Assembly: GCA_029964075.1 (NCBI GenBank)
Contig: CM057144.1
Location: 2,131,281-2,195,280, forward strand
Source of the DNA: Patiria pectinifera
Lineage: Eukaryota > Echinodermata > Asteroidea > Valvatida > Asterinidae
Direction: 5' to 3'
Length of the DNA stretch: 64,000 bases
Positions 1,287 to 63,379 of the stretch are shown here, piece by piece; positions within the stretch are counted from its first letter, which is position 1; the number at the start of each line of letters is the position of its first letter. The notes beneath the pieces are model-generated. The model saw only the letters and a list, made by a program, of their open reading frames with translations. It was not told the origin of the DNA and did no database searches. Position numbers and translations under genes: made by a program.

Positions 1287-1287
1287 A

Positions 1288-2492: not shown

Positions 2493-2909
2493 ATTGGGCT
2501 GTAACTCTAAGAATGTTTTCCAGCTTGTCATTGCAAAGCCCGAAGTTATGCAACAATCACATTAGCTCTCACGCAAGCTTTACGCTATAATTTTTTTAAC
2601 GTTTTTCAAAAATGTCAACTGTCAACCGCAATTTTAAGGTTGGTGGGTTAACGGGGCCCGATTTCTTGGCTCTGCTGACCGGCAGCGAAAAATCCCAGCT
2701 TACTATAGCAGAATATTCCCTGCTTAGCGTATTTCACGGGTCAGCTGGGAATGTTGGATCCTGCGCACGCGTGCATTCCGTAACTAAGGATTCTGTGCTT
2801 ACAGGGTTAGCGCAGAATTTTTCTGCTAGCGCGGTTAGCGCAAAATGGTGATCGCAAGCACGGATTCTTCGGTAAGCAAAGCCATGAAATTCGGCCCAGA
2901 TACACAGTA

Positions 2910-3096
2910 CAGTCGAATCTCGTTAGTACAAACTCTGTTAATACAAAATTCTGGTTATAACAAACATAAAGCCTTAGTCCCGACTGTGCATTTATGTGCA
3001 CAATGAATGGGACTGATGTTCCTCTTAATACAAAATTCTGATATAACAAACAATTTGGCTAGGTCTGAACGAGTTTGTATTAACGAGACTCAACAG
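2910..3096. mobile_element. Pogo/Tigger-type MITE, 187 bp
   Basis: Inverted ends CAGTCGAATCTCGTTAGTAC and CTGTTGAGTCTCGTTAATAC (read inward from the right), with internal subterminal repeats of TAATACAAAATTCTG. Perfect TA duplication on both sides (2908-2909, 3097-3098). Confidence 0.75.
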
Positions 3097-3923
3097 TATA
3101 TTGCTTTTTGGCCCATTGCTCAATTTGTATAATCCCATAATATATTCTCTAATTTGTACAAAGTCTTTAACCTTAATGTACAAAATGTGCAATCTGCTAG
3201 TGAAGGCTCTTGTAGTTTAAACTTGACAGAATAAAGAACAGAACAGAAAAGAAGCGCAGTTAGGCTTATAACTTATACATACAAATACCCAACTGTCTTG
3301 GAAGGGTTGCTGTAGTTAAAGCAGTTTAACCCTAAAAGGGCCGGGGGGGGGGGCGGAATCCTCCCCCTCCCCCCCTCAACATTTTCCGCGATAGCCTCTA
3401 AAAAAAATTATAAATAGCTGTTATGACTTTTTAGCCTCAAGCTTTGCGCATCTTTTGATACCAAAAACATAAAAATCGGACCACGGGTTGCCGCGTAGCG
3501 GAAAAATTTCCGGCGCTACGCGCCGTGAAAACTGAATTTTCCGATATACGTCGTGTACTCAGAGCAGAATTGTCATTCGTACATATGAATAATTAATTAC
3601 CAATAATTCCAAAACCCTTAGACCTATAGTCATGAAATTTCTTGGGTACGTTAAGGAAGAGTTGCTCTATGCATGTACTGAGTTTCCAAATTTTTCGTCA
3701 ATCGATGGCCGAGATCTTAGGATTCCGCCCCCTCCCCCAGCTGAGAGATGGTCAAAATAATCCGGCCCTTTTAGGGTTGAGCTGGTGGCGAAAGTACAGT
3801 TCTACGATGGATGCAGTACATCAGAATGATCAAGTTAAAGACGGACATTTTAAATTTGACAAAGAAAGAGATCTACCAATTTCCTTTTAATTACAGCGAA
3901 GAATTGCAGAGACGCAGCTAGGC

Positions 3924-3989
3924 TCATGCTTCTGCTAGGATGGGGTTTTTGACAACGCGGCCAGCAACTGGAAACTTCCCTTCAAAAGC
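3924..3989 (-). CDS. Terminal exon: end of cytoplasmic tail and stop
   Basis: Phase 0 acceptor ending ...tttgcag, then [20 protein letters not shown], Ala and TGA. Chosen because the upstream exon has a good phase 0 donor and this is the first downstream acceptor giving an open frame to a stop; the total then divides exactly by three. If the donor at 4614 were not used, the tail would read VSLEKNVC and stop at 4588. A possible poly(A) signal ATTAAA lies on this strand at 3886-3891, only about 30 bp beyond the stop. Confidence 0.72.
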   Translation of the reverse strand, partial: AFEGKFPVAGRVVKNPILAEA

Positions 3990-6900
3990 CTGCAAATCAA
4001 ACCAAAATGTATGGACTCAATAACAAACGGGGAAAAGAAAATCATCAGTACGATGGCTAGAATTCGTGAGAAAAAAAACGTAAGACAAGAAACACAATAA
4101 ATTAAGGGGCCACTTTGCTACCATCACGTCAGCAGGTTTTCCAATGATTGTGTTTTTTTGTTTAACACCTGAAACCACCAAAGCAGAATTTCAACACATG
4201 AATGGACAGCCTTTTGCTAAAGATAACTGACTTGATTATTTATACTGCTTTTTGACATTATCCACAAATTTCCATCAACTGGCGGAAAAAAAATCTTAGG
4301 TAACTTTTTCCGTCCATTTTTGATGAAAATTTGAGGGTGATTTTAAATATCAAAAAAAGAAAGAAAGAAAAGTATTCAACACATATTATAAGCCTACACG
4401 CCCATTCACATTTCAAAAACACTTTGGGTGGTTTAAGGTACTGTAAAAAAAAAATTACAACCACTGGAAAAACTGCTAACATGACAGAAGCAAAGTAGTC
4501 CCCTATATTGTGTTTCTTGTCATAAGCAGACTTGCATGGGACTTGGGACTCGATCCCCGAAACAATTCCAAGGCACAAACACAAAATTCAACAGACATTT
4601 TTTTCCAAACTCACCCTCTGGTCATAGTAGTTTCTAGCCTCCTGGCCGCTCGCCACGTAGGGCGTGACAAACTCGGGCTGCTTCACCGTCCTCCCTGCAA
4701 CGGGATTGAAGTACGCGTACATGACTCGCGGCTCGTACACCAGATACCTACGCCGCCGTCTTCGTAGTCGGAGGACCAAGAAACAACAGAGGCAGGACAG
4801 GACCAGCAACAGGGCTATCACGGCCAGCAGAATCAGCACAGCCGTCAACAGTGACATGGAGTCACCTAAACAACAGATGAGGCAAAGATAATGTGCTTTT
4901 ATAGGTTCTCACTGAGGTAGTGAAACTATCTCAAGAAAATTACGAACAATCAGTGTAGGGCTTGGAATTTTGACATTTTTACTTAAAAAGAAAATGCTTC
5001 CACGTACATGTACACCGCTTTTTCAATGAAACTAGCAAATGTGTGTTTTTCTCATATTAAGTTACAATTCGTCGCGTCAGTGCGACAAGGTCGTAACTTA
5101 ATTCTGCAACAAAGTCGTAACTCGCGCGAATACGCGCTGTGCAACAAGGTCGAATCTCGACGTGCATTGGCTTTGTGTACATCCGGGTTATTTAAGTAAT
5201 CTACGACCTTTGACACTCTGAAACTTGCATTTCACGTACGGCGCACTTTAGGAGATATGACCTTGTTGCACGTACACGGCAAATTTTTGTCACCAAGTGG
5301 CTCTGTAATCTGTATGCTTAAAATACAACTGCATATTTGCAGTTTGAAAAGTTTACATTTTCTGCAGAGAAACCTTCATACAGTTTAAATTTGACAAGAT
5401 TTTACGTGTTCACAATTAGTTCATGTGTCCAATTGCTGTGATGAAATAAAAACAACTATTGTGTCTGTCATGAAATGAGTACAAAAGGTTGATTTGAGAG
5501 CGTTTTTCAGGTCCTGTTTCGCACTGATAGCAACGTGCAAACGTCTCTAGTCAAACGCTGGTCAAAATGTCATAGTAAAACCTCTGGATAAACAGGACTC
5601 CCTGCAGCGTAGTATGAATGCGCGCGGCTATTGGTTACCAGCGAAGCAACCAACCCCAGTAGGCTGGTTCCAAATAGTCGACTAGCGTAGTCAACCACCG
5701 TCGACTAGACAGAGTTTGGGCAAACGTTAGTTAACCATTGGTCAACTATAGTCCTTGCGCGAACTTGGCCTGTGCTTTAGATATACAAAGACCCTTTACC
5801 ATATGCACACACCAACTATTCAAACATTTCAAAAGTGATCACAAAGATTTCCACAATGTGATTTAGCTAAAACTCTGAAGCAAAGTGTCTATATAAATAA
5901 ACATGTACCTGGCGCCACGGTTGGGGCAAAAGTAACTGGTTTCTCCGTAGGTACAGGAATAACTGACTCGCAGTTGGAGCCGGTGAATGCAGTGGCACAT
6001 CTGAAATTGGACGGCAGAAACATGTGTAAGGTTTAGAGTCTGATCACTCATTTGAGATAAAAAAAATGTTGAGATAAACCAACATGAGGCCCAGTTATAA
6101 TAATAATAATAATATCAAAGTCTTATATAGCGCACGTATCTACCAACTATTAGGTACTCAAGGCGCTGGAGATATGTCTATTATTAAAGAAAGGTAAATA
6201 AAGTTTATGAGAAATATGAGACCCATTATGTGGCACCTTATAAGGGTTTACAAGGTGCTGCGGCGCATATTGCAGCCACTGCCAGAAACACCAGGGCAAA
6301 CCCCTTCTCTTAGCGACAAGTGTTACTGGGTTCTTTAACGTGCATTACACAACACGAGGGACCTACGGCTTTACGTCCCATCCGAAGGACGAAGCAATAA
6401 TGGTGAAGTGCCTTGCTCAAGAGCACAAGCACCATGTTCCAACAGTCAGGATTCGAACCCATGTACCACGGCACACGGGTTGAACACCGTAACAATTGGA
6501 CCACAGTACCCCACGTACATGCACCATGTGACTGTCATGGCAAAAAAAACATTAAACAGTAACAGCTACATACATTCGCATTATGTCAAATTAAGTGGGG
6601 TACTTCTATAGTCCTGTTGCCCCTCTTCTTAAGAATTTCTTCTGTATGGTACAGTCTAACAAAGACTAGCCATAAGTACCCGTGATGACCTTCATATGCA
6701 AGGCATGACTGCCTGGGTTACATGTACGCATTAACCAGGCACATCTCTGCTGCTGTGAATGTTACGCTCTTTTTAAGAAACAATGCTAGATTGAACAAAG
6801 GTCTAAAACAGCCAGGCAACTAATACAACCTATAACTTAATTGATGCTGTTTTATGACGAGAATACCAAGCAGCAGCTCGGATTTTACAATGTGCTTTCG

Positions 6901-9900
6901 TTCATCTCCAATGGAGTACCAAAGTGTGACGTCATTTAGAACCAGAAAGTGTAGTGCAAACAAATGGAGTACGCGCACGTGTTGGTTCACGGGCTGAATC
7001 ACGCGCTAATGTCTTTTACACACATTTTGTGCGCGTGACGTATTCACTTCGGTACTCCAATTGCTGAACTTCTTACCTGCATGTATAATCCAAGGCTGGG
7101 TAATTGCCAGAGACATCACACGTCCCTCCGTTCTGGCAGAAGTTGGGCGGGCAAGCAGTTGTGGAGACTGCGGTACACAAGAGAGTACGGGAAGAAAATG
7201 AAACACCACTGCGTCTCAAGTGCTAGCCTGTCTTTTTGGAGTTGTATACACTAATTCGGCAGCAGTCATTTTCTGAGTTACGTGGCGCCAGGCTCGCCCG
7301 AGTCGCACTCCAGTAATACGAGCACACTCTGGACCCCTTCGACCTAAGCGTTACCAAAAGGCGCGCGTGTCTTGTCTTTAAGAACGCTTGGGACACGCAC
7401 GCGAATGTTGTTACACCTTAAAAATGGCTTGTTCGTTGAAAAAAAAGCCATGCAGATCATAGCACTTTGACGTCTTGATGTGCATTTTTTAAGTCGAATC
7501 TACCGAAGTACAAGTCTTATTGGGTTGAAACTTAGCATGTACTTAGATAGGGATGATATATCAATACCTGAAAGACTGTACCCGTTTTACCTCAGTAATC
7601 AACTGTTATTTTAATACACTGGTGCAAAAAAAGCCTCTCGAGCATTGATTTCATTGAGCACGACACAACCCCGACTCACCCATAGCGGTGACCTGAGGAT
7701 CCACATTCAGTGTGGTCTGTCCGTCTGTTAGTGCCCTCGATGATGACAGTGTCGACAACATCGACTCGATCACTCTGGCGGTGATGGCTGACTCTGCTGG
7801 GACCTGGACGACACCCATGAACATCACTTTGCCGTCTCTTACAACCAACTGGACTGGATGGACTTGGTTTATGTCACTTGTTGCTGGCGTTAGTCCCAAC
7901 TCAGATTGAATCTTTCAACAAACAAACAAAAGAAATTCAGGACCAGATTTATATACCAACAAAATACCATGGGGTAAAAGTATCCTACTGAAAAGTGTTC
8001 AAGGATTGTTAAAGGTACAGTCCTTCATTTGTAATTTGTGCATTGTGTTCGTTTGAAGCAACAAAAGTACTCAAAATCTAAAGAAGGGAGCTCAAAACTA
8101 ACTTGATGCAGTTTTAGCTCAGAGAATGCTGTTTATTCCGAGGAAAACAATATTCTAGGATCTCGATTTCAAATCAAAAGTTACTAGGTCACGTTTTGAA
8201 TTCCGCCCGAATTCAGCCTTTTCATTCAGCTTATTGCAGCTACGCAATGTTGCGCGCTGAACTGACAAATTATAGCAACGCGATTCGTAGAATTGAAAAC
8301 TAGCTACTAATGGAAATTTCAAACGATGCGTCTTTAGACGCATGGCCTTCTTCATCGTTTTCTTCAAAATGACAGCTTGCCAGAAAAACTAATTTCACAG
8401 GGAGTTTATTAGTCCTATTACTATCTTTAAACCGAGTATGATGTTCAACAATAATTTTGTCAAGTAACTTTTTGGATAGCTGCATCCGACCGTATACAGG
8501 GCGGCCGGATAAAACCAAACATGCTTGAGTATTTTCGCATCTGATTTCACCGGATCCAATTTCACTGGACGCAATTTTTTCTAATCAGATTCACAAAGGA
8601 AGTCACATGGTTGTCATCATGTGACTGGTCATCATGTGACAGATTTTAGGAGGAATCGGGCATGTGTGCGGTAACCTTAACCGCAACGGTAAAAAAATAC
8701 CATCGATGGGGTGATCTGGGAAACTGGTAAAATCGGGAAGGTGTGGAAAAAGCTAAATACGCAATTAACTTACCACTTTAGCCACCACCGCCAACAACCC
8801 AGGTGTACTGATGTCGCCTAAACCTAATGCAGTCCCGTTGATCCCTTCCACATTCATTTCTATCGTTACTGCTCGGAATCCTAGAAAAAAAAAAATTATT
8901 ATGAAATTGTTAATCAGAATGACGCAACCAGTCTTCTGCTGGTTGTGGTTCGAGTGCTGCCCGGGGCTATGGTGGGTGTTCCCTTGGGTGTTCCCTTGAG
9001 CAAGGCGCTTTGTCATTCATTGCTTCTCTCCACCCAGGTGTATAGGCCCTGTGAGGGCAGAGTTGGTTACTGTGAGAGGTTGATTACGGCCAAGAGCGCC
9101 GAAATGGTTGCCTACCAGTTGGTATCCTCCCCAGGGAGTTGAGAATGTTTCAGGGTTGTTAACCCCTTGAACAGGGGTAATAATAATTGTAAAGCGCTTT
9201 GATACCCAGTTTCAGGGTGGCGTACCACATTGGTACTTTCCTCGCCTTCCACCAAATTGTGACCTCAGTCATCGAATCCCTAGACCTGGGCGTGAACAAT
9301 ATGTGGATTGGGTTTTCAGCCCAGATTTTCACTGCCTGATTTAAATCATAGGTGTTGTGTGTAAGTTTTTCCCAGAATATTCTTCTGGGGTTTTCCTCCC
9401 ACCTCTAAAACTGTAATTTCTTCTCATTGTCTTCTCTCCACAGGTTTCTTCAGGCTTGCGAGCTACAGTGCCTAGGGCGCTTTTGAGGAATCCTTGGTTT
9501 AATTACCAGAAAATGATTAATAATAATAAATAATAATAATGATACCCAGTTTATACAAGTTATATAAATGCCTGTTATTATTATCATCAATCCAGAGATC
9601 TACAGTCCATAAATCCATAGGTCTTCTGGAATGCGCGGACCGCTTGTAAATATACGTAAGCTGTAATAATGCTACTGTCACTGACCGTTTTGGGTGCAGC
9701 TGTTTCCAGAACTGTCCCAGAAGTATCCGTCGAGTTCCCGACAGGCACACCTGTATCTAGCAGGGAGTTCACTGAAGGGGACTGGCAGGCAGTACTGGCC
9801 AGGTGTCGCTGCACAGAGGCCAGGATTCAATACACACGGATCTGTCAAGATAATTTAGAAGAAAAAAAAAGGACAATGAAACTTCACTGTTTTCCACTTC

Positions 9901-12900
9901 ATTTTAATTGCAACGTTATGCAGGGGACCTGGGCTCTGTGGATAATGGGTGATAAGACAGGCTAGGTCCCTTCTGGGCCGAGCAAAAGCCTGGCAGGCTG
10001 AAATCACAATTGCTAATTCTCACCTGTCTGACAATTTCTTTGAATACAGGTGCAGGTGAAACGATTGATGCCGTCTTCACAGGTTTCCCCGCTCAAGCAA
10101 GGGTTGGGATTACAATCGTCGATGTCTGTGAGGTAGAAAGAAAATCCTGTCAGCATGTTGTGCATTTCCCCAATGAATTGTTAGAAGCACTGTGTGCTCA
10201 GTGCTTTATTACAAGTGCGTGTGAGAAAGTAGCAGTTGGCTTGGCAATTAACCCTCGGAGTCGAGTGACCAAAAAAATCACACCGTGAAACCACATGGAG
10301 AATTTTATCACCACACTGTTTCTAGGTCAATAACCCCCTCATGCACAAGATATAGGCAGGTCACATGGCCTTCGTGTGGGCCAGGATTGTTTACGACCTG
10401 TCTGAGCTCTGGGCGGCACGAGGGGTTGACACAGAGAGATCGGCGGCACAAAGATGTTGGCCACTAAGATCTCCAATTACTGCACAAAGGCATTAGGCGC
10501 CGCTTGGGGCTGCTGTCTTTCAACACTCCTTACTCGGCAGTGGTTAGGGTCTGGCCAATGGGAGTCTACAGGCTTGTGGTGTATACCAGGGGTGAGGATT
10601 ACATGGAATCTTGGCCTTATTGGCCAATTGAAAAAAAAGTGATGACCATATTTGGAAAATGTGGAGAATTTTATCACCACGTGGCTACACCGAGGGTTAA
10701 AGGTACTGTAGGTATAGTTTTTTTCATCAGATGTTTTTGTTGGATGTCCAATTTAAAAGTTGACAAGATCGGTTAAATCCTTGAAACCAGCAATTGTTAT
10801 TTTTTTATTTTTTTACAGAAGGGTACCAATAGTTTCACAGAGGATCAACTTCAAATGAGTAAAGGAGTAATGCATGGATGATATTTAAGTGCGCGACAAC
10901 CAACCATTTGATGGTCTACTAAGCAGTACCTGCATAGCACTGTCAACATGAAAGGTACGAATTCCTCTTTGATTCACTTCAGTTAAAACAAAACAGCAGC
11001 AGTCACAAGAAATACTACCAACTGACCTGTCTCACAGTCGCTTCCTGTGAAACCTTCTACACAAGTACAGGCGTAGCTGTTCAAGCCGTCGTTACAGGCT
11101 CCCCCATTCATGCAAGGGTCGGGATCACAATCATCAATATCTACAAATTAAACATGGACACAGACGGATAATCAGACAATTAAGCTTTGAATCCAACCCA
11201 GACAATGATCAAAACATTCAACCTGTTCGTCCATTTTTTTTGCCATTATGAAGAGGAGTGTGTGGTTTTATGTATTTCAAGTCTTGAATTTAGAACGCAA
11301 TTCCAGTTCCAAAGGCACGGTTGGAGTGATTCACAGCTCGGCGTAATAGCTCAGCTTAATCTACAGCTGGTCTACCTGTGCTCACATTGAGAATACTTCT
11401 TTAGTGGGACGCTAGTACGACAGACCAACATCCCAAATGTCAAAAAAAAAAGGAGTTCTAGCGCCCCAGTTAGTGGGACTAATACCGTCTGAACTTGATG
11501 AAGTTTAATTGATGTCAATGTATATGAGGATGGACTTCAACAAACTGTTATGTGGCTCTGCCTCCTAGACACAGGACGCAGTGGCTTCTGTTTTGGGCAG
11601 GAAGTCAAAATCAGCAAAAATACTATTTTATACTGACCTATTTCACAGTCCTTTCCTGTGAACCCCTCTACACAAGTGCAAACGTAGCTATTGGTGTCAT
11701 CTTCACAAGCTCCTCCATTCATACATGGGTTGGGATCACAGTTATCTGCATGTAAACAATCAAACCGATTGAAATAGAAAAATAAGTTATTCTCAACGAT
11801 GACAAATGTGCAAATTTTGATTGTAGCTCAGCTCAGATCAAGAAATTCATAAGACAGCTGCAATTGAAAGTGGATGCTGATGAAAAGGAATTTGTCAAAA
11901 ACTATGAGCTAGGTGAAGCAACTTACCCCTTGCAGTAACTGCAGAGTCCACATCCAGGGTACTCTGTCCATCAGTTAAGGGCGCTGCAGCAGCTTGTCTG
12001 GATAAGACTTCCATGATGGTGTCAGCAGTTACAGGCGAAGCCACTGGGACGAATATATCACCTGTGAAAACTACACCATCTAGTCCAACGGAAATCGCAC
12101 CGCTGACCGATTCAACGTCGCTGGTTGTTGCGTTCTCTCCAAGTACACTTGCAATCTGGAAAAGAACGAGATGAAACTTGTGTCAACATTTCACAATCAA
12201 GCTGGTGACTTATACTAAGTCAAAGAAGTCTGCCACCACATGAAAATTACGGACATGCCATTGATGAGCCCCCTCTTTTGAGGTTTATCCTTGCATTTCA
12301 TCCAGGATGCAATCAAAGTCGGCGTATGGCTTACCACTCTTGCCACCAGGTCTGCCAACGCCCTGGACGCTGCAGAGTTAGGATCTGTGTAGTCTGCAGG
12401 GTCGAGAGCAGAGCCGTTTACTCCTCTGACGTTCAGTACAACTGTAACAGATCTCACACCTGAAAAGCAAGGATCAAAATGAAATCAATGTGTAAAAACG
12501 CAGTATACAGAAGATCCTGATCATTGACGCCTCGCTGTAGAATTCTAGTGATTTACTGACAACTGTAGAGTAAGCACTGACAAATACCTCAGGTGGCAAA
12601 TGGTTTTGCGGTTATACTGTCTAATTCATGTTGCGTCTAATTGGCATCTTTTAATGAGGATGGACTTCAACAAACTTGCCAGAGTGCTCATCATGCTAGA
12701 CACAGAATACCTTGGCTATTTTCACAGCAATCCAATTGGCAAACACACACTATTTTATACTGACCTATTTCACAGTCGTATCCGGTGAACCCCTCTACAC
12801 AAGCGCAGACGTAGCTATTGATGCCATCTTCACAAGATCCTCCATTCATACAAGGGTTGGGATCACAGTTATCTTCATCTAAAAATCGAACACAGGTGAC

Positions 12901-30900: not shown

Positions 30901-33900
30901 CAGACACGCTTGGTGCAAGGAATGCCCGATGCATATACATTACAAAATGGAGATCCTCAAATTTACAGTATCTGATGGGCCAAATGTATTTCAGGAATAA
31001 TGATGCAGCCCAACATATCAAAATTTATCTCATTTCACGGGGCCTTAAATGTACGGAGATACTAGATGTAAATTGGAATTCCAACTCTTTTATATGGTCA
31101 ATTTTTCTAATGTAATTAAAACTGCTTTTTTGAAGCTGCCCAGATGACATGAAACTCCTGACTGAACAAGTGAAAAAAAATTCATGATTTCTTTTTCGTG
31201 GGAAAAGAGGAAATGGACAATTTCAAACAATGATTCTCACACCAAGGCTCTTGGAGGCAAGGCTGAGTTTGGGCAGAAGAACTCCTGATTCAGAAGCGCA
31301 TAAACTGTACCTGTAACCTCAAATGTGAAGCTCTCTGCTGCCGTGCAACCATCCGAGTTAGTCACGTTGCAGGTGACTGTGTGGGATCCAAGACCAAAGT
31401 CACCCCCGGTCACACTCAGACCGGTACCATCGCCAGAGTCTGAGCACGTGATGGGCTGAGCGTCAGAATTTGTGGCGGTTACCTCGGCCCAAGCCACTGT
31501 GACTGTTGATTGGCCTGTCCCGGGAGTCTGGGTGCCAACCATCGGTACCGTTAGAGATGGAAGAGCTGTGGAAATAAAGCAAAAACACGAGAACATTGTT
31601 TACCACAAAGGCTAGGTTTTGAAGGAATATTATGACATATCTTTTCTGTGACAGTGTAGTTCTGAAAAGAACGGGAGTTGAGAAGTGTTCTTGACGTTTT
31701 GGAGAGTGTACTCTAGCCATCCTCAGAACAGGCAGAGTACATTGTCACAAACAATTTTATTTTTTTAGCAGTGATTGTATCCATCATAACCTTACAGGGT
31801 AGTGCGTGTCGAAAGACAGCTATGGCACTTGTTCACAATAAGAATGGTGGAATTTACAGGCACCGATTGTGTAACCAGTGAAAATACTAATATCATCATG
31901 TTCTGGTAACTTTTGCCCTTCACCGACATATACTCAGTGTTTCAAGCAGTGGGTCCCACATACTGAAAACACATGTCTCAGCGAGGGGTTAGGGAGCATG
32001 TAAAGTTACAAACGACATAATGTGATTGGATCATTTTCTGCCTCAGATTGTTTAGTTTGTTTCATCCCACTGCGTTGTCATTTCGTGTGGATGCCATGCT
32101 TGAGAAACCCCAATGGTTACAAAGAGACAGGCAAGAATCTTGAACGCACTGCTGCCATATGCCTGATGCTTGTGCAATGACTATTCAGGTTCAGAATACA
32201 ATCAGAAGGCTGCACTCGGCAATATTCATGCCTGAGCCAGTTAACATACACATGGTTCCTTGTGGGCTACAAGAAACAGAGTAACTAGGGACAATAATAC
32301 ACCAGTCAGTGCTTCATAAGGAATACACAACAGAGTTTTAATTGAAACAAAAGGATATAAAGAAAACAAAGGACTTACACACAACTATTGTATGCTGTGT
32401 GTGTGGGCATGTTCATCAATTCAAACCGTGGGTGAAAAATACCAGAGAACAAAAAGAAAACAATATCGTCCACGGTTCCAAGCATGTGTCCGCGCCAGAT
32501 TGGGGTCGTGTACAAAACATATGTGAGTCTTCCTAAAAAGTACAAACAATAGAGGGACAATAGGACGTCCATGCTCGCTGGTGTGAACGCGAATGTATGT
32601 ACGTGTTCTACATAACCCCCGAGGACCGACACACAGGGAGAACAGATCCTTTCGGTCCTCGGGCATTGGGTATTTGTTGAAAATGGTCTTCTGTAGCTGG
32701 TTTGTGTGCCTAGTCTATGGGAGAGCGTTATAGTACAGGGACAGAGGTCGACACAAAGCATTGTCCTCGGGAGTATAGTAAAACTAGAGTGTGTGCACAC
32801 GCAGTGTACCAGCACAAAGTGCTATCACAAGTGGTCACGAAGTGCCATGTACATCATGGACAACATTGACCTGAAAACCAGTTGTTTTTACTATTCCAAT
32901 CATTTTTTTTCTCCAGTAAACAAAACATTGTATTCAACAAACGGCCTTTCATTTGTAAAGGCAGTCTCATGATCTTATTATTGACGAAAACATGGATACT
33001 GGAGTTCCCATTTAAGATATTTTTACCTGTGACATTGAAGGTGAAACTGGACCAGTCCGTGGTTCCGTCGTCAAAATTAGCAGAGCAGGTGATTGTGTGA
33101 GACCCAAGTCCAAAGTCTCCCCCGGTCAGAGAGATGCTGGCTCCATCTAGCGAGTCAATACAAGTGACGGAACCATTGAGGGTAGTCCCAGTTTTCATGG
33201 CAGTAACTCCTGTCCAGGTCAGCGAAACATTTGCTTGGGTGGCATCAATACATTGATTCTCCACATCTGGCACGAGCACGTAGGCCGCTGTGAGGTGAAT
33301 AACAGAACAGCGAAACATTTTGCAATCAAAAACAAGCCGACACATGGGTGTTGCCCTTTGTCCTTACTTTAGTCAAGCCTGTTTTTTTGCAAAACTCTGC
33401 ATGCAACAAACCTAATCAAACCAACTGCCAATGCACTTTTGGAAATCCACCTGTAGACAAGGCCACAAATGACTGGTGATCAGATCGATTGCAACAAGGA
33501 TTTTCAATAGTTTTCTAAAGTGTAAGACATTATGTGGATTTCTCTAGATTCAGACTAAGTAATAATGAGCTAACACTAAGATACTGGCAATTTCCAAACA
33601 AACATTCCAAAATTGATGGATTTAATCTCCATTACCCTGGCAGATTGGGTTTTCAGAGATTATACTTGGACATTTTTGCCGCAGGTCTAGGCTAGCAATT
33701 GTGAATGAGAAATGTGTATTTTCCAGTAAGCAGGAGCATAAATCATCATTGATGAACTTTGCTTACAAAAGATCAATGCAGTATTTTGAGATCAACGTGT
33801 TCAAGATGTTGGCAAAGGTTGCCTATTGTTTTATAGTAACATTTTGTAGTGGTGATTATTTAGAAATTCTCTAAGAGCTTTGCAATGAATCCATAACCCT

Positions 33901-36900
33901 TGACTCACGTTCGCCACAGATGTAGTTGTTCTTTTGGTTGCAGCTGTCATCACCCCATGCATTGTCTCTGTCTGTCATCTCCCCACTTAATTCATCCTTA
34001 TATATATGCACACAATCTTGCCCTGCTCCTCCATCTGGTTCCACAGGAGATCTATTTGTATTCCAGAAGAACACATCCTACACGAGAAAGAAAACAATAA
34101 ACAGTTAGGCCAAAAAAAAAAAGTCTCCGGTTTCTGGTATGGAGCTTGTCCAAAAAGTGGTGCGGCCACGCGGCTTTTTTTTTTTTTTACCCGACTTTTT
34201 TGCTTCAAATTTGCTCCAAATGTCGGCTGATGACTGCAAATGGTGCCCGACTAAACTTCGTGCAAATATATGGGAGTCCATGCAGAGAGGCCACATGAAG
34301 CTTATTCTCGATCATAGCCCCATCTAAAAACACGTTGAAATTACGCAGCAGCAGAATTCCAGTCAAACCAGTGAGTTTGGCGGTTTTGAGACATCATCTT
34401 TCATTGAAAAAAAAACTTTTTCATTTGGCCGACGCGCATGGCTACGGCGACGCGCGCGCATACCAGAAACCGGAGACTTTTTTTTTTTGGCCTTATGGTG
34501 AAATAATTCACTTTTACAATATTTTCCATTAAATGGCCTGAAATTTGATAAACACAATCAAAGATCCTGCCAATGCATTGTTTGTAAGTTTATATAATAT
34601 TGTTTTCGTAATCCAGATATGGAAATGCTGTTGCTTTTCTTTATTTTTTGTTGCTTTTCAAAGCCGTTGTTTTAATTAAGCTTTCTAAGCAAATTTGTTT
34701 CCTCTGGTGTTGTTTAAGGGGGAGGGTGGCTTCTAAAAAAGGTTGATTTTGTTATTGTTTTTGTGTTTCTTGTTAAAAAATATATATGCGTACATGTTAC
34801 TAAGTTTGTTCAGCCAGGCTCTTAACACCAGTTTCAAATACATGTGGGCATAGGTTTGCAGGGCACAATATGATGGGGGTGGGGGGGGGTGCTTGGAAGC
34901 AAGCAACAGTGTTTCTCTGTTGGCCACAAAGGTGTGTGTCCAAAAAGAATAGATGTAAACTAACCGCAACAGTGCCATCGATCCAGGTATAAGTATCTGC
35001 AACATCACGATCAGTCAATCCAATCCAAAAGCCAGTGTTGGTGTCTGGCACAATGGTTTCTGTAAAAACCAAAAAGACATTATAATAAACAGTGTGATGA
35101 ACAGTTTTAAACATCAGTGTAGGAGTTGTGACATTTACGTGACAGTCCTTCTGATTTGAAAATCACACTGGTGTGTGGAAAAACGCACACCTGGACAAAG
35201 ATAATAATTGTGATGCTTATTTCATCATATTCTTATGGAATTTGCGCAATATAATGTATTAATTATTATTAATTATTATAACAATTTATTAGTATGGCGT
35301 CTTTAACCAGTTGAATATTGTACATATGTATATAAAAAACATTCCCTGCTTCTTTTGGGGGTGCTCTTAAAAATAAATGTTAAAATTGAATTTATCATTA
35401 TCAGTTGTTAGAATAACAAAGGTTATGAACTTTTTTGTGTGGCACCCTAAAAAATAACTGTAAAATGTAATTCATAAATACCTCAGACAGTTTAGCTATT
35501 CCTATTGGTCGAGAGCCCGTCACGTGGCCGGTCTTAAACGGATGATAAAAACATGGCTAGCTGGTCTTAAACACTTTTCCAGTGTCACAATATAATGTGG
35601 ACTCCTAAAAATCCAGTGCCTCTTTCATCGGTTGAACATTCACAATCCTCACGTAGGCATGCGCAACACGACCAGGGAGTCAAAATTTTATAGTTCTAAA
35701 TTCAAAACGCAACGCGCCAGGTGCGTTCTACGCGACATCACGCAGAACATGATACGCGCGCGTCAATCTCCATAAAAGGGTTGTTTACATCTTACTCGCC
35801 AGCTGAACACTCCATTATTTTGCAAGAAGGATGTTTCAAAAAGCATAAAGTGAATTTGTTGAACAAAATCGGGATGTTTTGAACGAATTATATGATTTTT
35901 TCTTACCGAAAAGGTATTTATGAATGGGAATAAATATTCCCATTGGCTATACAAAAGTTTTTTTACTTTCCAATGAGATAGCAAACGGAAAAATAAAAAA
36001 AAAAATCAGTCCATACAACGTTTTAATTAAATGCAGCTTTTGAATAAAGTCAAATTTCAGTGAAGTAAAGTCGGACCCACAAGTAAGTCAACATCCACAA
36101 CTTGTGGATTTTGACTTACTTGTAGGTCCTTCAACACACTACCATCACAACCCAGCCCTAAATTCCATCATCAACGTCATGTCCAAAGTGCTGCAAGTGC
36201 CATCTTAACGCGCATACCACTTCGGTGTGTGTAGGTGTAAACATACTGCAAAGACCAAGCCCAACACCCGCGACTCGGGCCAAATTCTAACTTCAGCTTG
36301 AGCGTGAAACAAGCACAACACACAAAGCTCTTCATTTGTAAGGAGTTGTTGCTTCTAAATGTTCTAAAACCAATTAATTCATTTAAGGACATCATATTCT
36401 TCGAAAAGTCTTAGCAACCTCGACTTCATGGGCTGCGTGCTCATTCCTTCACAACCCCGGGCCATGTAGAATACGAAAATGATGCTGATTGACAATTCAG
36501 TGCATTTTTGCACACGTACAAATGTATTTCGAAGGATGCAAGCCCTGTATTTATTCGCCTTGTCTCCTGCATGTCATGTTATGTACAAAAGTTCTGTTCA
36601 AGACTGCCTTTACAAAATGCCTCTAAAGTCAGGCAGGCAGAGGTTTTTTTGTGTGCTGTATACGTAAGACGGCTTACGTAAGAGGGATACGTTTAGAAGG
36701 ATTGAAAAGTCACATTTCAAACAAAGTTCCGTAAGCAAATGCAAAGGTCTGGCTACAACATATTTTGGCTTATACTCACTTGACTTATATATTATTCAAT
36801 ACAAGTCAAATATCCACAGCCAATCCTGCAGAGATGAGTTAATACTCACCGTATACATAGTACTGTTGCTGGGCAGTATGGATGCTGGCAAGATGCCCAC

Positions 36901-39463
36901 CGGCAGCTATACAGGCAGCCTCAGCCGTATCCCAATTCACTCTATCTCCATTTGAGGCAAAGTAGACGACATTGAAGCAGAAACTTCCCTCTCTGTGCCA
37001 GCCATCTGGACAGCAATCACCTAAAGATACGAAATTTGTTGACATGAACAAAATTGACTTGGGGGCGAGGGGGGGGGGGCCTGCTGGACATCACAAGAAC
37101 ACTATAGGGGGCTCTGTTCATATGACACATCTTACGTATGCTTATGCCCCTTAGCTTCACATCAAAACGGCAAATTTAATTTGTACCTTTTTCAACATGG
37201 GTACATTTTTTTGGCAAGTTCAAAAAGTACCTCTGAATTCGCCTTTTTTGTTCCTCACCACGAAAAAGTGTGGGGGGGGGGATGATCAAATAGTCCCCTA
37301 CCCCTGATCCCATCAGTTGAGACAAGTTCAATGAGGTATTTTACATGAGATGACTTGAAGGATTCCCCAAAGCTTATCACAAGCCCAGGGTACGTACATC
37401 ACCTTTAGTTTAGTCAGTCAGTGTTCTCAAAAGACTTGAAATTGAATGTTGTCCTCACTGGCACTGCTGTGAACAACACAGCTAAAATAAACCCCGTGTA
37501 GAAATTCGTTGACCATATGTGCCTGCTGTGAATGGGCTCAAACATTTCTATCTGCTCTATGAAACCGACCCAATAAAAATGTCAAATTCCTTACGTTAGG
37601 GCTAGGCCAAAAAAAAAGGTCTCCGGTTTCTGGTATGGAGCTTGCCCAAAAAGTGGTGCGGCGACGCGGCTTTTTTTTTTTTTTTTTACCCGATTATTTT
37701 GCTTCAAATGTCGGCTGATGACCAGACTGCAAATGGTGCCCGACTAAACTTAGTGCACATATATCGGAGTCCAGAGAGGCCACATATAGCTTATTCTCGA
37801 CCATAACCCAATCTAAACACACGTTAAAATTGTGCAGCAGCAGCAGGATTCCAGTCAAACCAGTGAGTTTGGCGGTTTTGAGACATCATCTTTCATTGAA
37901 AAAAAAAACCTTTTTCATTTTGCCGACGCGCATGGCTACGGCGACGCGCGCGCATACCAGAAACCGGAGACTTTTTTTTTTGGCCTTACTGACCAAAAAC
38001 AGAAGGAAGGTATCAGTGACGACTGTTCATCGCTTAAGTAAAAAAAACTTATGAACGGCAAACCGGCCTACACGAAACATATCTCGTGATCAGCGAACGG
38101 GGACACAACACACTGACTTAATTCCAAGCCGGCTTTTGTTCGTGTGTCACCGCCCAAAAAAAAAAGCCATAATAACGCAATAGTGAAAGTGAACTGACTT
38201 AATGACATCAGCAACTTTTCGCGTTGTTTTTGCCCCATAGAACGTGACAGAGTTTGAATTTGTCTCTTCAAGAAAACTCAACAACAAAGAAGAATCAGTA
38301 TTGATTGTCATGATTTGATTTTGACGAAAAAAACTTGGCCAAAACGTTCGTTGCTGTTCACTTAACCGATTTTGGCCGAAAAAAAGGAATTTTGAAAAAT
38401 GTTTTTGGGCATAATTCGTCCGTTCGTGAAAACGCTGACGAAGTGCGGCTTTGAAGGTTCTTTGTATTTTGAGTGACGTTATTATTGGAAACGAAAAATG
38501 AAATGCATGAACTGCAAATGATCCCATGCCTTTAAATGATAGACACGTAAATAATCTGAACACTGAATCGTCTTGCTGACGAACGTTACCTTAAAACATT
38601 CTTGCCATTTTTTTTTAAAACTCCAATGCGGATGTGCATGTTGTAGGCCCATGAAGATGTATTTTGCACTTCAGTGAACTAAATCTTGGGCTTTAAACGT
38701 TAACAAGAAGCCACTAAATAACAATGCCGTTTCTAAGCTTCATCTTGTATACCTACATCTACTTGTCGTCACCATTTTGACGACTGAGGTGCCGTAAAGA
38801 ATCCGTCTAAACCGGTAAACTTTAAGCAATATGGCATTTTTTGATATTCTACCATTTTAATAAATGATGTCCTCTACGTTTTCTGCCACATTTCAATTTC
38901 AAGACACACAATTGCATCGCTCGTTAATTACGCTAATTATACAAAGTGGCGATACTGTGGCAACTGTGGCGAATCTGTGGCGAATCTGTGTACCAACACA
39001 ACGCTAGACCTATACACACGACGATTGTGCGTACTCCGATTTTTTTTTTGACGAAGTGACGAATCTTTATAGTATACGACAACGGAGATACAGCAGGGTT
39101 ATTGAACAACTAGGCTATCGCATCAGTTTTATATTTTTCAACTTTTTTGGGGGGGGGGGGATAAAAATGTATATGAAATTGCGATTTGAAAAATTAACAA
39201 ACTTCAGACGAGTTTCTCAAAACTCGGTTTTGTTGCTGTGTGGGCGTATTCTTGTCTACGTGATATTGTTCGTTTGCGACTGATCCACTCGCAATGTGTT
39301 ACATAAGACGTAATACTACACCCGCAAAGTTGCACTACGGGATCACTTTAAACGCAAAGTAAAAGAAAGTACAAAAAGAACACACAATTACATTACCTGC
39401 CAGGATCGTAGATAAGAGTAGAATTGCCCGGAAGAGCAGTGGTGACTTAGGATGCAAGAACAT
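3924..39463 (-). CDS. Giant lectin-HYR-mucin-(SEA-EGF)12 transmembrane mucin, 53 exons
   Basis: Reconstructed exon by exon on the minus strand: 53 coding exons totalling 11,124 bp, 3,707 residues plus stop, with every junction phase agreeing and GT-AG borders. Order: signal peptide (1-22), C-type lectin domain (23-167), two HYR domains (168-339), Thr/Pro mucin repeats (340-1396), EGF (1397-1434), twelve SEA-EGF modules (1435-3304), three EGF-type domains (3305-3428), SEA 13 (3429-3541), EGF (3542-3602), transmembrane helix (about 3607-3632) and cytoplasmic tail. Almost all extracellular exon borders are phase 1, the usual state for shuffled extracellular modules. Expected place: apical plasma membrane as a tethered mucin whose lectin tip stands beyond a rigid glycosylated stalk; this is inference from the domains. 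The C-terminal EGF-SEA-EGF-TM arrangement resembles vertebrate membrane mucins, but lectin and HYR domains at the other end are not part of those. Splicing is inferred from sequence only, so exon skipping within the array is possible. No gene symbol is recognised. Confidence 0.88.
4615..4865 (-). CDS. Transmembrane helix and start of cytoplasmic tail
   Basis: Phase 1 acceptor, phase 0 donor (gtgagt), 251 bp. After GDSM comes a hydrophobic run of about 26 residues ending [10 protein letters not shown], then six consecutive Arg and YLVYEPRV. The Cys cluster at the inner membrane face is a likely palmitoylation site and the Arg run a stop-transfer signal that fixes the tail inside. The tail continues with Tyr-containing motifs YAYFNPV, TPYV and NYYDQR, possible phosphorylation or endocytosis signals. 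Confidence 0.9.
4866..5908. other. Intron before the membrane exon
   Basis: No exon is needed here, as the phases of its borders agree. It contains a diverged inverted repeat around GTGCAACAAGGTCG (about 5130-5150) and GACCTTGTTGCAC (about 5261-5273), possibly an old MITE. Confidence 0.45.
5909..7167 (-). CDS. Last EGF domain, split by an intron, plus Thr/Pro linker
   Basis: Exons 7077-7167 and 5909-6000, joined in phase 2 inside the domain. Reads [20 protein letters not shown], then a loop ending DYTC, then [12 protein letters not shown]. The linker continues [20 protein letters not shown] to the membrane exon. All other EGF domains here lie on a single exon; this one is broken between the fourth and fifth Cys, so it has a separate origin. 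The intervening intron (6001-7076) contains a SINE. Confidence 0.85.
6098..6520 (-). mobile_element. tRNA-derived SINE, near full length, minus strand
   Basis: On the minus strand the head near 6510-6440 has a tRNA-like A region and a perfect B box GGGTTCGAATCCT, followed by a body with the conserved block CGTCCTTCGGATGGGACGTAAAGCCGT (read in parts), ACGTGCATT and an end with (ATT)n at 6098-6114. Lies in the intron that splits the last EGF. Related fragments occur near 8930, 42775 and 48780. Confidence 0.7.
7168..8773. other. Introns on either side of the second SEA 13 exon
   Basis: Two non-coding pieces, 7168-7679 and 7912-8773. The second includes GGTTGTCATCATGTGACTGG with an immediately repeated GTCATCATGTGAC near 8612-8641. 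Nothing else is supported. Confidence 0.5.
7680..8880 (-). CDS. SEA domain 13, closest to the membrane (residues about 3429-3541)
   Basis: Exons 8774-8880 (107 bp) and 7680-7911 (232 bp), phases 1-0-1 as in all the other SEA domains. First half [20 protein letters not shown] then [15 protein letters not shown], six residues shorter than the array copies. Second half starts [13 protein letters not shown], has [13 protein letters not shown] at the place of the cleavage loop and ends [17 protein letters not shown]. In vertebrate membrane mucins the SEA nearest the membrane is the one that self-cleaves at G-S; here the position reads G-V. Confidence 0.85.
8930..9545 (+). mobile_element. SINE and SINE-like repeat block
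   Basis: A diverged tRNA-SINE head (CCCTTGAGCAAGGCGCTTTG near 8995) leads to a tail TAATAATAATTGTAAAGCGC at 9178-9197. A second repeat follows and ends GAGGAATCCTTGGTTTAATT and an (AAT)n tail at about 9518-9540. It fills most of the intron between SEA 13 and the divergent EGF exon. Confidence 0.5.
9686..9841 (-). CDS. Divergent EGF-like exon (residues about 3377-3428)
   Basis: Found by following phase between its neighbours: acceptor ...gacag, donor gtcagt, 156 bp, phase 1-1. Reads [18 protein letters not shown], a Pro/Leu-rich loop, [20 protein letters not shown] and a last Cys in SCTQN. Six cysteines spaced as in an EGF but with longer loops than the other copies. The donor is weaker than average, so this exon might be optional. 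Confidence 0.75.
10024..10125 (-). CDS. Shortened EGF exon (residues about 3343-3376)
   Basis: Phase 1-1, 102 bp. Reads [19 protein letters not shown] then [15 protein letters not shown]. The loop between the fifth and sixth Cys has only four residues instead of eight, a 12-bp deletion relative to its neighbours. Splice sites and frame are intact, so it is probably expressed with an altered C-terminal hairpin. Confidence 0.82.
10126..11026. other. Intron between the shortened EGF and its neighbour
   Basis: Non-coding. It contains short direct repeats of GGAGAATTTTATCACCAC (near 10297 and 10664) but no recognisable element. Confidence 0.4.
11027..11140 (-). CDS. EGF exon after the array (residues about 3305-3342)
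   Basis: Phase 1-1, 114 bp. Starts [19 protein letters not shown] and continues [23 protein letters not shown] is closer to the calcium-binding EGF consensus than the DEDNC of the array. No SEA domain precedes it, so EGF domains stand side by side here. Confidence 0.9.
11638..12459 (-). CDS. SEA-EGF module 12, diverged copy (residues about 3151-3304)
   Basis: Exons 12335-12459, 11927-12155 and 11638-11745. Clearly older than the others: the first half reads [20 protein letters not shown] and [12 protein letters not shown], the second ends VDSAVTARG. The EGF exon is 108 bp, not 114: its acceptor has moved 6 bp inward, so the leading residues DE are lost and it starts D-NCDPNPC. Its mid-section is [13 protein letters not shown]. 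Confidence 0.9.
12765..13560 (-). CDS. SEA-EGF module 11 (residues about 2995-3150)
   Basis: Exons 13436-13560, 13046-13274 and 12765-12878. The second SEA half ends VDPAVTAI instead of VTAM. The EGF starts [19 protein letters not shown]. The intron to the next module has begun to diverge from the amplified units. Confidence 0.92.
13842..14673 (-). CDS. SEA-EGF module 10 (residues about 2839-2994)
   Basis: Exons 14549-14673, 14165-14393 and 13842-13955. Close to consensus, with [20 protein letters not shown] in the first half and [11 protein letters not shown] at the end of the second. Confidence 0.92.
14956..15789 (-). CDS. SEA-EGF module 9 (residues about 2683-2838)
   Basis: Exons 15665-15789, 15279-15507 and 14956-15069. 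Close to the consensus module; uses DTIMDVL in the second SEA half and GSDCEI in the EGF. Confidence 0.92.
16071..16904 (-). CDS. SEA-EGF module 8 (residues about 2527-2682)
   Basis: Exons 16780-16904, 16394-16622 and 16071-16184. The first SEA half ends [10 protein letters not shown] where most copies have [10 protein letters not shown]. Otherwise the standard module. Confidence 0.92.
17191..18010 (-). CDS. SEA-EGF module 7 (residues about 2371-2526)
   Basis: Exons 17886-18010, 17500-17728 and 17191-17304. The first SEA exon uses donor gtatg, where others use gtaag. The EGF reads [16 protein letters not shown], with Ala for Val and Glu for Asp. Confidence 0.92.
18289..19121 (-). CDS. SEA-EGF module 6 (residues about 2215-2370)
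   Basis: Exons 18997-19121, 18612-18840 and 18289-18402. The second SEA half reads [12 protein letters not shown] (others DVESV), and uses ETIMEVL instead of DTIMEVL. All splice sites match neighbouring modules. Confidence 0.92.
19400..20222 (-). CDS. SEA-EGF module 5 (residues about 2059-2214)
   Basis: Exons 20098-20222, 19714-19942 and 19400-19513. First half has RGINGT and SSDFADPN where most copies have RGVNGT and SSDFTDPN. The EGF ends with SDCEI. First of the short (about 1.11-kb) units after the foldback-bearing ones. Confidence 0.92.
20514..21357 (-). CDS. SEA-EGF module 4 (residues about 1903-2058)
   Basis: Exons 21233-21357, 20837-21065 and 20514-20627. The first half gains a second sequon (ALNSSDF) after VNGT. 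The second half reads [18 protein letters not shown], where others have SVGPDG and DVFVPVD. It is a hybrid at the border between long and short units: its first-half exon and upstream intron (21358-22108, with foldback) match modules 2-3, while its EGF and downstream intron match the short units. Confidence 0.92.
21537..21699. repeat. Foldback (hairpin) repeat, copy A
   Basis: Nested palindrome: outer arms CAAATAATGAATGTTT and AAACATTCATTATTTG, inner arms GGTGACAGATGAAATGTTCC and its complement at 21626-21650. Lies in the intron 21358-22108, directly next to an inverted-repeat-bounded segment. Confidence 0.85.
21706..22039. mobile_element. Inverted-repeat element beside foldback A
   Basis: Ends ATAACACCTGAATAAATCC and GGATTTATTCAGGTGTTGTAT are inverted repeats. 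The interior includes a 46-bp hairpin (21895-21940) with arms GTGCAATGGAAGTTCTATT. The same pair of foldback and element recurs in the next two long SEA-EGF units. Confidence 0.75.
22109..22944 (-). CDS. SEA-EGF module 3 (residues about 1747-1902)
   Basis: Exons 22820-22944, 22424-22652 and 22109-22222. The sequon is VNNT and the following residues are ALFSSDF. The second SEA exon uses donor gtgagt, where most use gtaag. Its upstream intron (22945-23706) contains the foldback element, nearly identical to those beside modules 2 and 4. Confidence 0.92.
23125..23639. mobile_element. Foldback plus inverted-repeat element, copy B
   Basis: Nearly identical to copy A, in the intron 22945-23706 between the EGF of module 2 and the SEA of module 3. 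Copied with the module, not independently inserted, because the flanking intron sequence is the same too. Confidence 0.8.
23707..24544 (-). CDS. SEA-EGF module 2 (residues about 1591-1746)
   Basis: Exons 24420-24544, 24023-24251 and 23707-23820. SEA reads [20 protein letters not shown] in its first half and [20 protein letters not shown] in its second. The EGF acceptor is followed by DEDNC as in the other copies, and the EGF ends DCET rather than DCEI, a mark shared by modules 1-3. The intron on its N-terminal side (24545-25300) carries the foldback element. Confidence 0.92.
24718..25231. mobile_element. Foldback plus inverted-repeat element, copy C
   Basis: Third copy, in the intron 24545-25300. 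The same outer and inner palindromes and the same terminal repeats, with a few substitutions (for instance ATTCGCCTCGGCTTCCC in the loop). Confidence 0.8.
25301..26273 (-). CDS. SEA-EGF module 1 (residues about 1435-1590)
   Basis: Exons 26149-26273 (SEA first half), 25615-25843 (SEA second half) and 25301-25414 (EGF). The most divergent of the internal SEA second halves: it starts [13 protein letters not shown] and reads [10 protein letters not shown], adding an unpaired Cys. The EGF again has GGCC instead of GGSC. The sequon in the first half is VNAT rather than VNGT. The intron between this SEA first half and the upstream EGF (26274-27280) is unlike those of other modules. Confidence 0.88.
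26721..26894. repeat. Two-copy direct repeat, 94-bp period
   Basis: Copies at 26721-26800 and 26815-26894 share ATCGTATAGTCGGG, CCATGACGAGTC and ACGACAACGCTCTAGG. They lie in the intron between EGF 1 and SEA 1. No known element recognised. Confidence 0.8.
27281..27394 (-). CDS. Exon 8: first EGF domain, with a seventh cysteine
   Basis: Phase 1-1 exon of 38 residues, [19 protein letters not shown] followed by a standard EGF C-terminal half. It ends in gtaagg. It differs from most array copies in reading GGCC instead of GGSC, giving an odd number of cysteines. Residues D-x-D-N-C and D-x4-Y resemble a calcium-binding EGF, though the usual Glu/Gln before the first Cys is Asn. It sits between the mucin domain and the first SEA domain. 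Confidence 0.9.
27563..30733 (-). CDS. Exon 7: mucin domain, 85 tandem 12-residue Thr/Pro repeats
   Basis: A single exon of 3,171 bp (1,057 residues), phase 1-1. The unit is QPTT(D/E)GPTTQAN, 36 bp; the first QPTT codon set begins at 30698 and the last at 27638, exactly 85 x 36 bp apart. The reading frame is open throughout because the 36-bp register never shifts. The coding frame has no internal Met upstream of 29558, so Met-based ORF calling makes the array look broken. A third of the residues are Thr and a sixth Pro, with paired TT and no Cys: a dense O-glycosylation stalk. D and E alternate irregularly at the one acidic position. The exon begins [11 protein letters not shown] and ends [10 protein letters not shown]. 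Length is probably polymorphic between alleles, and assembly may have collapsed or expanded it. Confidence 0.93.
27563..30733 (-). repeat. 36-bp coding minisatellite, about 85 copies
   Basis: The minisatellite underlying the mucin domain. Units differ by third-position changes and by the Asp/Glu codon. A higher-order repeat is visible: the distinctive run of variants starting at 28861 reappears at 29113, 252 bp (seven units) away, showing block duplication inside the array. Confidence 0.95.
31311..31565 (-). CDS. Exon 6: HYR domain 2
   Basis: Phase 1-1 exon of 85 residues, homologous to the preceding exon: [10 protein letters not shown], then [30 protein letters not shown] and SFTFEVTG. The shared block [10 protein letters not shown](I/V)TC shows that the two HYR exons arose by duplication. 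The donor is gtacag. Confidence 0.85.
31566..33026. other. Intron between the two HYR exons
   Basis: Contains a hairpin at about 32617-32663 with arms CCCCGAGGACCGA and TCGGTCCTCGGG around a loop of about 22 bases, and a 146-codon open stretch on the minus strand (32375-32815) that does not look like a protein. No other feature seen. Confidence 0.45.
33027..33287 (-). CDS. Exon 5: HYR domain 1
   Basis: Phase 1-1 exon of 87 residues. It shows the HYR (hyalin repeat) pattern: a beta strand with VSLTWTGV, then [27 protein letters not shown] and a final FTFNVTG. HYR domains are immunoglobulin-like adhesion modules, abundant in the echinoderm hyaline-layer protein hyalin. Here the domain links the lectin to the mucin stalk. 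Confidence 0.85.
33909..37020 (-). CDS. Exons 2-4: C-type lectin domain
   Basis: Three exons: 36850-37020, 34965-35059 and 33909-34077. The first carries the long-form start ([15 protein letters not shown]) and the helix region [17 protein letters not shown]. The second has the conserved core [10 protein letters not shown] and YTWIDG. The third has EPD followed by [14 protein letters not shown] and NYICGE. Cysteine spacing fits a complete long-form domain. EPD replaces the classical EPN (mannose type) or QPD (galactose type) motif, and WGD replaces the calcium-binding WND motif. Calcium-dependent sugar binding is therefore plausible but its specificity cannot be read off. Introns fall between the domain halves, with phases 1, 0 and 1. 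The 35060-36849 and 34078-34964 introns hold mobile DNA. Confidence 0.9.
34108..34492. mobile_element. Harbinger-type MITE, complete, 385 bp
   Basis: Terminal inverted repeats of about 35 bp (GGCC, A-run, AGTCTCCGGTTTCTGGTAT and the mirror ending AAACCGGAGACTTTTT...GGCC). Perfect 3-bp TTA duplication on both sides (34105-34107, 34493-34495), as made by PIF/Harbinger transposases. Sits in a lectin-domain intron. Confidence 0.8.
35060..36849. other. Intron within the lectin domain
   Basis: Mostly unremarkable AT-rich DNA. It has a near-perfect 57-bp palindrome at 36073-36129 (arms GGACCCACAAGTAAGTCAAC and its complement, no loop) and a diverged inverted pair GCTATTCCTATTGGT (about 35491) and CCCATTGGCTATAC (about 35939). 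Confidence 0.6.
37605..37985. mobile_element. Harbinger-type MITE, complete, 381 bp
   Basis: Second full copy of the family at 34108. The same terminal repeats; flanks CTA and TTA. It lies in the first large intron of the lectin-mucin gene. High identity to the other copy suggests fairly recent activity. Confidence 0.8.
39397..39463 (-). CDS. Exon 1: start codon and signal peptide
   Basis: Begins [20 protein letters not shown] and ends with an Ala and a phase-1 donor (gtaatg). A basic stretch precedes a hydrophobic core of about twelve residues, a typical cleavable secretion signal of about 22 residues. The next exon starts directly with the lectin domain, so cleavage close to the exon border would leave the lectin at the mature N-terminus. 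Confidence 0.85.
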
Positions 39464-63346: not shown

Positions 63347-63379
63347 GTAGAATTGCCCATTTCATAAAGTCAATATTAT

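Follow-up and report, generated by a model that had tools for sequence, protein, structure and literature searches.

In membrane mucins of the MUC3, MUC12 and MUC17 type the order of domains is EGF-SEA-EGF, the SEA domains of MUC1 and MUC17 cleave themselves at a G-SVVV site, and MUC16 carries several SEA domains in one mucin. As far as the excerpted texts of published accounts go, the SEA domain of MUC17 lies between mucin and membrane and is self-cleaving, with a PDZ motif in the same protein (PMC6705488); mucins with a SEA domain are described in cnidarians (PMC9080433), and among echinoderm proteins SEA is present in some syndecans and absent from agrins (PMC10381214). Here we analyse a 64,000-nucleotide stretch of the genome of the starfish Patiria pectinifera (assembly GCA_029964075.1, contig CM057144.1, positions 2,131,281 to 2,195,280; hereafter the window), the minus strand of which carries, by our high-confidence prediction, a single gene for a transmembrane mucin with a lectin-like head, a threonine-rich stalk, twelve SEA-EGF units and an EGF-SEA-EGF base.

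Results

The gene extends over 3924..39463 (minus strand) and comprises 53 exons with 11,124 coding bases, which encode 3,707 residues with a single stop at the end; its introns are GT-AG in 52 of 52 cases. A preliminary description of the same DNA, which had joined 53 exons into one 3,707-residue frame, is thereby reproduced in size and in both ends. The features are given below from the N-terminus onwards, with three predicted proteins of Patiria miniata (P0121, P0002 and P0001) as references.

39397..39463, minus strand: exon 1, with the ATG and the signal peptide (N-terminus hydrophobic by reading; alignment with P0121 from its residue 1 on)
33909..37020, minus strand: C-type lectin-like domain (CTLD), three exons 37020-36850, 35059-34965 and 34077-33909 (Pfam Lectin_C 1.8e-20; sequence matches to CTLDs in the PDB)
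33027..33287, minus strand: HYR-like domain 1 (HYR1), one exon, phase 1-1 (48% identical to HYR2, E 6e-21)
31311..31565, minus strand: HYR domain 2 (HYR2), one exon, phase 1-1 (Pfam HYR 19.9 bits against a cut-off of 21.7)
27563..30733, minus strand: mucin domain encoded by a single exon of 3,171 bases, with ~85 twelve-residue repeats (Tandem Repeats Finder, 85.4 x 36 bp)
27281..27394, minus strand: EGF 0, between mucin and array, with an extra odd cysteine
11638..26273, minus strand: twelve SEA-EGF units of three exons each (SEA 125 + 229 bases, EGF 114 or 108 bases)
9686..11140, minus strand: three further EGF-like exons, 11140-11027, 10125-10024 and 9841-9686 (Pfam EGF)
7680..8880, minus strand: 13th, membrane-proximal SEA, exons 8880-8774 and 7911-7680 (47% identical to array SEA, E 1e-26)
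5909..7167, minus strand: EGF split between exons 7167-7077 and 6000-5909, with the juxtamembrane linker (Pfam EGF 21.2 bits against 21.5)
4615..4865, minus strand: transmembrane segment, Arg-rich stop-transfer and start of the cytoplasmic tail (by reading; aligned to the C-termini of P0001 and P0002)
3924..3989, minus strand: last coding exon, end of the tail and stop (P0001 ends alike)

Exons were found with a list of open reading frames and a phase-aware exon-chaining script run on the minus strand, which returned 51 exons and most of the gene. The script made six EGF exons too short, missed one further EGF exon and the signal-peptide exon, and placed the last exon wrongly; these were set manually from splice sites and sister copies, both gene ends being known from the preliminary description. 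The hand-set ends are backed by the relatives, because P0121 aligns from residue 1 and P0001 shares the C-terminal ending. Chaining scored 593 for the gene span. The plus strand of the span reached 3.4, the reversed span 8.1, and the region 40-64 kb 3.8 on one strand and 4.1 on the other; taken by itself, the head region gave 42.2, and its opposite strand 0.7. Since the codon table had been built from motifs in the mucin gene itself, the contrast is inflated, yet the gap is large. Translated searches (tblastn) with the head, a two-unit piece and the C-terminus gave no second copy elsewhere in the window, and Rfam gave no matches.

The twelve SEA-EGF modules proposed earlier are all present, SEA being recognised by fold and not by Pfam profile, and a 13th SEA lies between EGF-like domains near the membrane. 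The predicted structure of a P. miniata module, 99% identical to the window's array SEA, adopts the SEA fold in the model, and its best structural matches are MUC16 chains. The array EGFs match Pfam EGF, and the 15 that were caught by pattern (from 17 EGF-like domains) all show the C-x-D/N...Y/F-x-C spacing of hydroxylated, calcium-binding EGFs. The loop in which self-cleavage would take place reads DGVVF in the 12 array SEAs and DGKVMF in the last, so that by sequence the G-SVVV motif is seen in 0 of 13 modules. Some database matches in this region were set aside. Pfam Lactamase_B (1.3e-19 in P0121) and similar families reflect summed weak repeat matches with no single stretch passing, single modules reaching 0.091 at best; strong whole-protein Pfam scores of this kind in automatic domain lists of repeat proteins are probably artefacts. 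A PDB sequence search with a SEA-EGF unit returned EGF matches (among the best 60 of 133), including three neurexin rows spanning residues 54-155, partly SEA, which we took as EGF-anchored.

The mucin domain consists of ~1,050 residues of Thr-rich repeats, with 32.7% threonine and 50.3% proline, threonine and serine combined, and provides the long tandem repeat in these residues (85.4 x 36 bp) that is typical of SEA-type membrane mucins. Beside it, EGF 0 (27394-27281, minus strand) and EGF 1 (25414-25301, minus strand) each have a seventh cysteine (GGCC) and SEA 1 (25843-25615, minus strand) has a lone one. These three odd cysteines next to the mucin are absent from the first units of P0001 and P0002, and may possibly form inter-chain disulphides.

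The CTLD claimed in the preliminary description is well supported (Pfam Lectin_C, 74.1 bits against a cut-off of 22.6), and CTLD structures are among the best 60 of 145 matches in the PDB sequence search. HYR2 falls just short of the Pfam cut-off, and its counterpart in P0121 passes it (26.7 against 21.7 bits). When 200 fetched proteins were scanned with a HYR profile of our own making, HYRs emerged in P0002 and P0121 alone, although several of the 200 carry Pfam HYR in precomputed lists; because the profile overlooked these, the HYR assignment is based on Pfam and on internal identity. Sugar-binding CTLDs carry EPN or QPD, an E, and WND at their calcium site. By reading, the window's site has EPD, QDC and WGD, that of P0121 EPD, EDC and WGD, with one more acidic residue kept, and the calcium-dependent combination of EPN or QPD with WND does not occur in the window's CTLD. 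As the site is altered in this way, calcium-dependent sugar binding by the putative head is doubtful, and the sugar-binding role first attributed to it is conjectural.

At the base, Pfam EGF (3.6e-19, three stretches) covers a piece that includes the 12th array EGF as well, the domain at 9841-9686 being EGF-like solely below the cut-offs. A SEA domain with flanking EGFs thus lies between mucin and membrane, followed by one transmembrane segment, assigned by reading, and a tail; the split EGF is 0.3 bit under its cut-off, and SEA identity comes by fold for the array module and by homology to it for the last SEA. The protein ends in ILAEA, which by eye is no PDZ-binding motif. A tail stretch of 26 residues (VMY...NPxAG...VASGQEA) is 50% identical in P0121, which suggests a cytoplasmic partner. 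The last intron contains an inverted repeat at 4081-4524, 66% self-complementary over 462 columns, like a fold-back element.

Three protein searches covered lengths of about 857-2,727, 1,240-3,944 and 1,019-3,241 residues and required shared 5-mers within a capped number of candidates, so that diverged, very long or very short relatives could escape them. With EGF-containing queries, Notch and Crumbs dominated (best 120 of 711 and of 792), while the EGF-free query (the third range) gave 3 matches at E <= 1 among 7,985 scored candidates, all from P. miniata and none a vertebrate mucin. Notch, Crumbs and eyes shut were rejected as relatives beyond their EGFs, since, in the set of 200 fetched proteins, P0001, P0002 and P0121 were the only ones that an array SEA matched at E <= 1. 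Within that set the head hit P0121 and P0002, and its CTLD additionally gave matches of 26-27% identity to the Branchiostoma proteins P0070 and P0120.

P0121 (3,108 residues; automatically named 'mucin-17-like [Patiria miniata]' by NCBI) has the order signal peptide, CTLD, two HYRs, Thr-rich stretch, SEA array, EGFs, SEA, EGF, transmembrane segment and tail. The head aligns with P0121 at 65% (residues 1-339 against 1-340), and within the C-terminal 403 residues positions 3-376 do so at 60%. It shares the whole order with the window protein and differs in having 17 array SEAs (15 by pattern, two more by reading) with no EGFs between them. P0002 (2,041 residues, 'neurogenic locus notch homolog protein 2-like') starts within the CTLD and extends to the tail, its head part being 82% identical over 230 columns; P0002 and P0001 ('protein eyes shut homolog isoform X2'), the genes of which, each listed with a contig of 18,124,431 bases, probably lie on one and the same P. 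miniata contig, are models without an N-terminus that share the SEA-EGF array and the base. Over the C-terminal 403 residues, identity is 96% with P0002 and 94% with P0001. No listed protein is nearer, as would fit a second asterinid such as P. pectinifera, or else an unlisted paralogue. Array SEAs number 12 in the window, 11 in P0001, 7 in P0002 and 17 in P0121, and EGF 0 is an extra of the window protein relative to all three. At the level of titles and abstract openings in capped listings, the open-licence literature yielded no CTLD-HYR-mucin-SEA protein. The earlier statement that no named protein with this layout is known should be toned down, because P0121 is public under its automatic name with the same order, minus the array EGFs.

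Sequence comparison together with the predicted gene model shows that the array expanded through tandem duplication of complete genomic units, each of three exons. Unit spacings are 1,729, 1,600, 1,587 and 1,135 bases, then 1,101-1,116. Units 1-3 have an intron of 751-762 bases after the EGF, 96-97% identical among them; in units 4-10 this intron measures 278-291 bases (91-97%), and identity between the two classes is 42-45%. The intron within the SEA separates units 2-4 (98-99%) from units 5-11 (89-96%), unit 1 being nearer the second class (70-73%); because this boundary lies elsewhere than that of the post-EGF intron, unit 4 and perhaps unit 1 would be hybrids. Unit 12 stands apart (SEA intron 46-50%, preceding intron 48-55%). 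Mean identity over all unit pairs is 90.2, 94.1 and 90.7% for the exons and 71.7, 71.2 and 67.7% for the introns, and the ratio of mean nonsynonymous to mean synonymous divergence (dN/dS) over 66 SEA pairs is 0.27. These patterns suggest two or more rounds of tandem copying, under coding constraint and with exchange between units, from which gene conversion is indistinguishable in these data.

Elsewhere in the window, a Rieske [2Fe-2S] exon lies at 58833-59096 (plus strand, Pfam 3e-18), which we take, as a guess, to belong to a plus-strand Rieske oxygenase gene, for example a cholesterol desaturase; the open frames nearby at 57314-57751 and 59517-59768 matched no Pfam family. A dispersed repeat occurs at 1287-1440, 34106-34495 and 37603-37988 (copies 80-88% identical, two of them in mucin-gene introns), and further repeat pairs at 44555-45036 and 62834-63358 (76% identical) and at 52850-53174 and 54608-54926 (78%).

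Discussion

By its predicted architecture the protein is a SEA-type membrane mucin. The likeness to a MUC3/12/17-type base that had been claimed at the outset is supported: a mucin domain, then SEA with EGFs, a transmembrane segment and a tail are common to both (PMC6705488 and PMC9080433, each in excerpt). In contrast to these mucins, the starfish protein has no visible self-cleavage motif and no PDZ-type C-terminus by eye, and it adds the CTLD-HYR head and twelve extra SEA-EGF units; descent from MUC3/12/17 is not shown, and two features of those mucins are missing. With MUC16 it shares multiple SEAs in one mucin, although the starfish SEAs alternate with EGFs, lie apart from the mucin repeats and reach 10-11% identity to MUC16 in structural alignments.

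We lean towards a single-pass membrane mucin of the epithelial glycocalyx with a recognition head, in which the gene and its layout are very likely and the role is about evenly balanced. At roughly 0.25 nm per glycosylated mucin residue, 3 nm per EGF and 4 nm per SEA, a stalk of ~260 nm and a rod of ~85 nm would hold the head about one third of a micrometre from the membrane. The protein would sit on epithelial cells as part of the glycocalyx, with the O-glycosylated stalk and the SEA/EGF rod, presumably stiffened by EGFs of the calcium-binding type, acting as a spacer that keeps the head a few hundred nanometres away. Because no SEA carries the self-cleavage motif, the ectodomain would stay covalently attached, unlike the breakable heterodimers of MUC1 and MUC17. 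What the head recognises may be a particle, a microbe or a ligand in the matrix, and the tail may link the protein to uptake or to the cell cortex. The roles suggested before, in mucosal defence, in the capture of symbionts or as a glue, are guesses.

Several observations weigh against this assignment. The SEA domains have diverged beyond the reach of standard sequence searches: with Pfam SEA (PF01390), one window module taken alone gave no match, a 317-residue window piece gave 13.6 bits against 26.4, and none of 14 P. miniata modules matched at E <= 1. NCBIfam likewise found none of those 14, and Foldseek gave matches of modest quality for the SEA model (E 6e-4 to 8e-4, TM-score 0.61-0.68). 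Pfam HYR (PF02494) did not match HYR1 in the window protein, the P0121 counterpart reaching 12.6 bits, and the structure prediction of the head (pLDDT 38.5, from two sequences) is too poor for a fold. The domain search proposed in the preliminary description hence found the CTLD outright and HYR2 just below its cut-off, the latter vouched for by P0121; it returned neither SEA, which is seen by fold, nor HYR1, the case for which is its 48% identity to HYR2. P0001 begins inside the mucin repeats with no head, as a truncated prediction or a real short form, and the P. miniata proteins that bridge the parts are themselves predictions, automatic by look. A lectin-HYR gene and a neighbouring mucin-SEA-EGF gene, or more, might have been misread as one through phase-1 introns. 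The absence of phase errors, put forward earlier, is correct in that the frame joins, but hardly tests this point, because phase 1 is shared by 36 of the 52 introns (of the others, one is in phase 2 and 15 are in phase 0, 13 of these within SEA domains) and 20 exons are of the 1-1 type; we rejected it as proof. A split into separate genes is nevertheless highly improbable: P0121 and P0002 each bridge the head and the SEA array or base, the introns flanking the mucin exon are short (577 and 168 bases), no AATAAA occurs on the minus strand from 31761 to 25219 around that exon (15 are present in 3000-39500), and by reading neither a transmembrane segment nor a stop follows the head. The claim of one transmembrane mucin gene is supported by the bridging predictions.

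Other functions were weighed on the same gene. A sugar-binding receptor for immunity or symbiont capture, with a functional, calcium-dependent lectin as its head, would fit the well-supported CTLD, the distance of the head from the membrane and the additional acidic site residue in P0121; with EPD, Q before DC and WGD at the window's site in place of EPN or QPD, E and WND, we regard it as unlikely. A gamete-recognition or gamete-coat protein, its repeat number changing fast between species, would account for the array SEA counts of 12, 11, 7 and 17 and for EGF-free search relatives solely in P. miniata, and the sea-urchin receptors for egg jelly (PKD1 family) offer a precedent for a CTLD in a large echinoderm membrane protein, SpREJ1-3 carrying CTLDs and SpREJ1 one EGF (PMC1934368, in excerpt). 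However, no REJ, GPS or PLAT domain was detected in five scanned pieces of the model or in the whole of P0121, and the SEA coding sequence is constrained on average, which leaves a gamete role rather improbable. An adhesive or mucus component such as a tube-foot or epidermal glue, with its ectodomain shed or its base spliced off, would recall the sea-star footprint protein with several EGFs and the tandem EGFs common in marine adhesives (PMC9382459, in excerpt). It is very doubtful, given the transmembrane segment and tail in all four proteins (the window's, P0121, P0002 and P0001) and 13 of 13 SEA modules with no self-cleavage motif; the excerpted texts of PMC9382459 and PMC5460417 name no such protein.

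Returning to the membrane mucin of the glycocalyx, we tentatively entertain, as a possibility short of probable, an overlooked starfish family of SEA-type mucins with profile-invisible SEAs, which would combine a MUC17-like base, a MUC16-like SEA array and a lectin-HYR tip gained separately from vertebrates, or else represent an ancient mucin that has diverged heavily. The distance of the head would be adjusted by tandem copying of genomic units, either SEA-EGF or SEA alone. An EGF-SEA-EGF-transmembrane base and a hidden SEA array in a starfish suggest that profile-based surveys can miss such mucins, and the two unit types that lengthen the rod in paralogues would offer a natural test of selection on stalk length.
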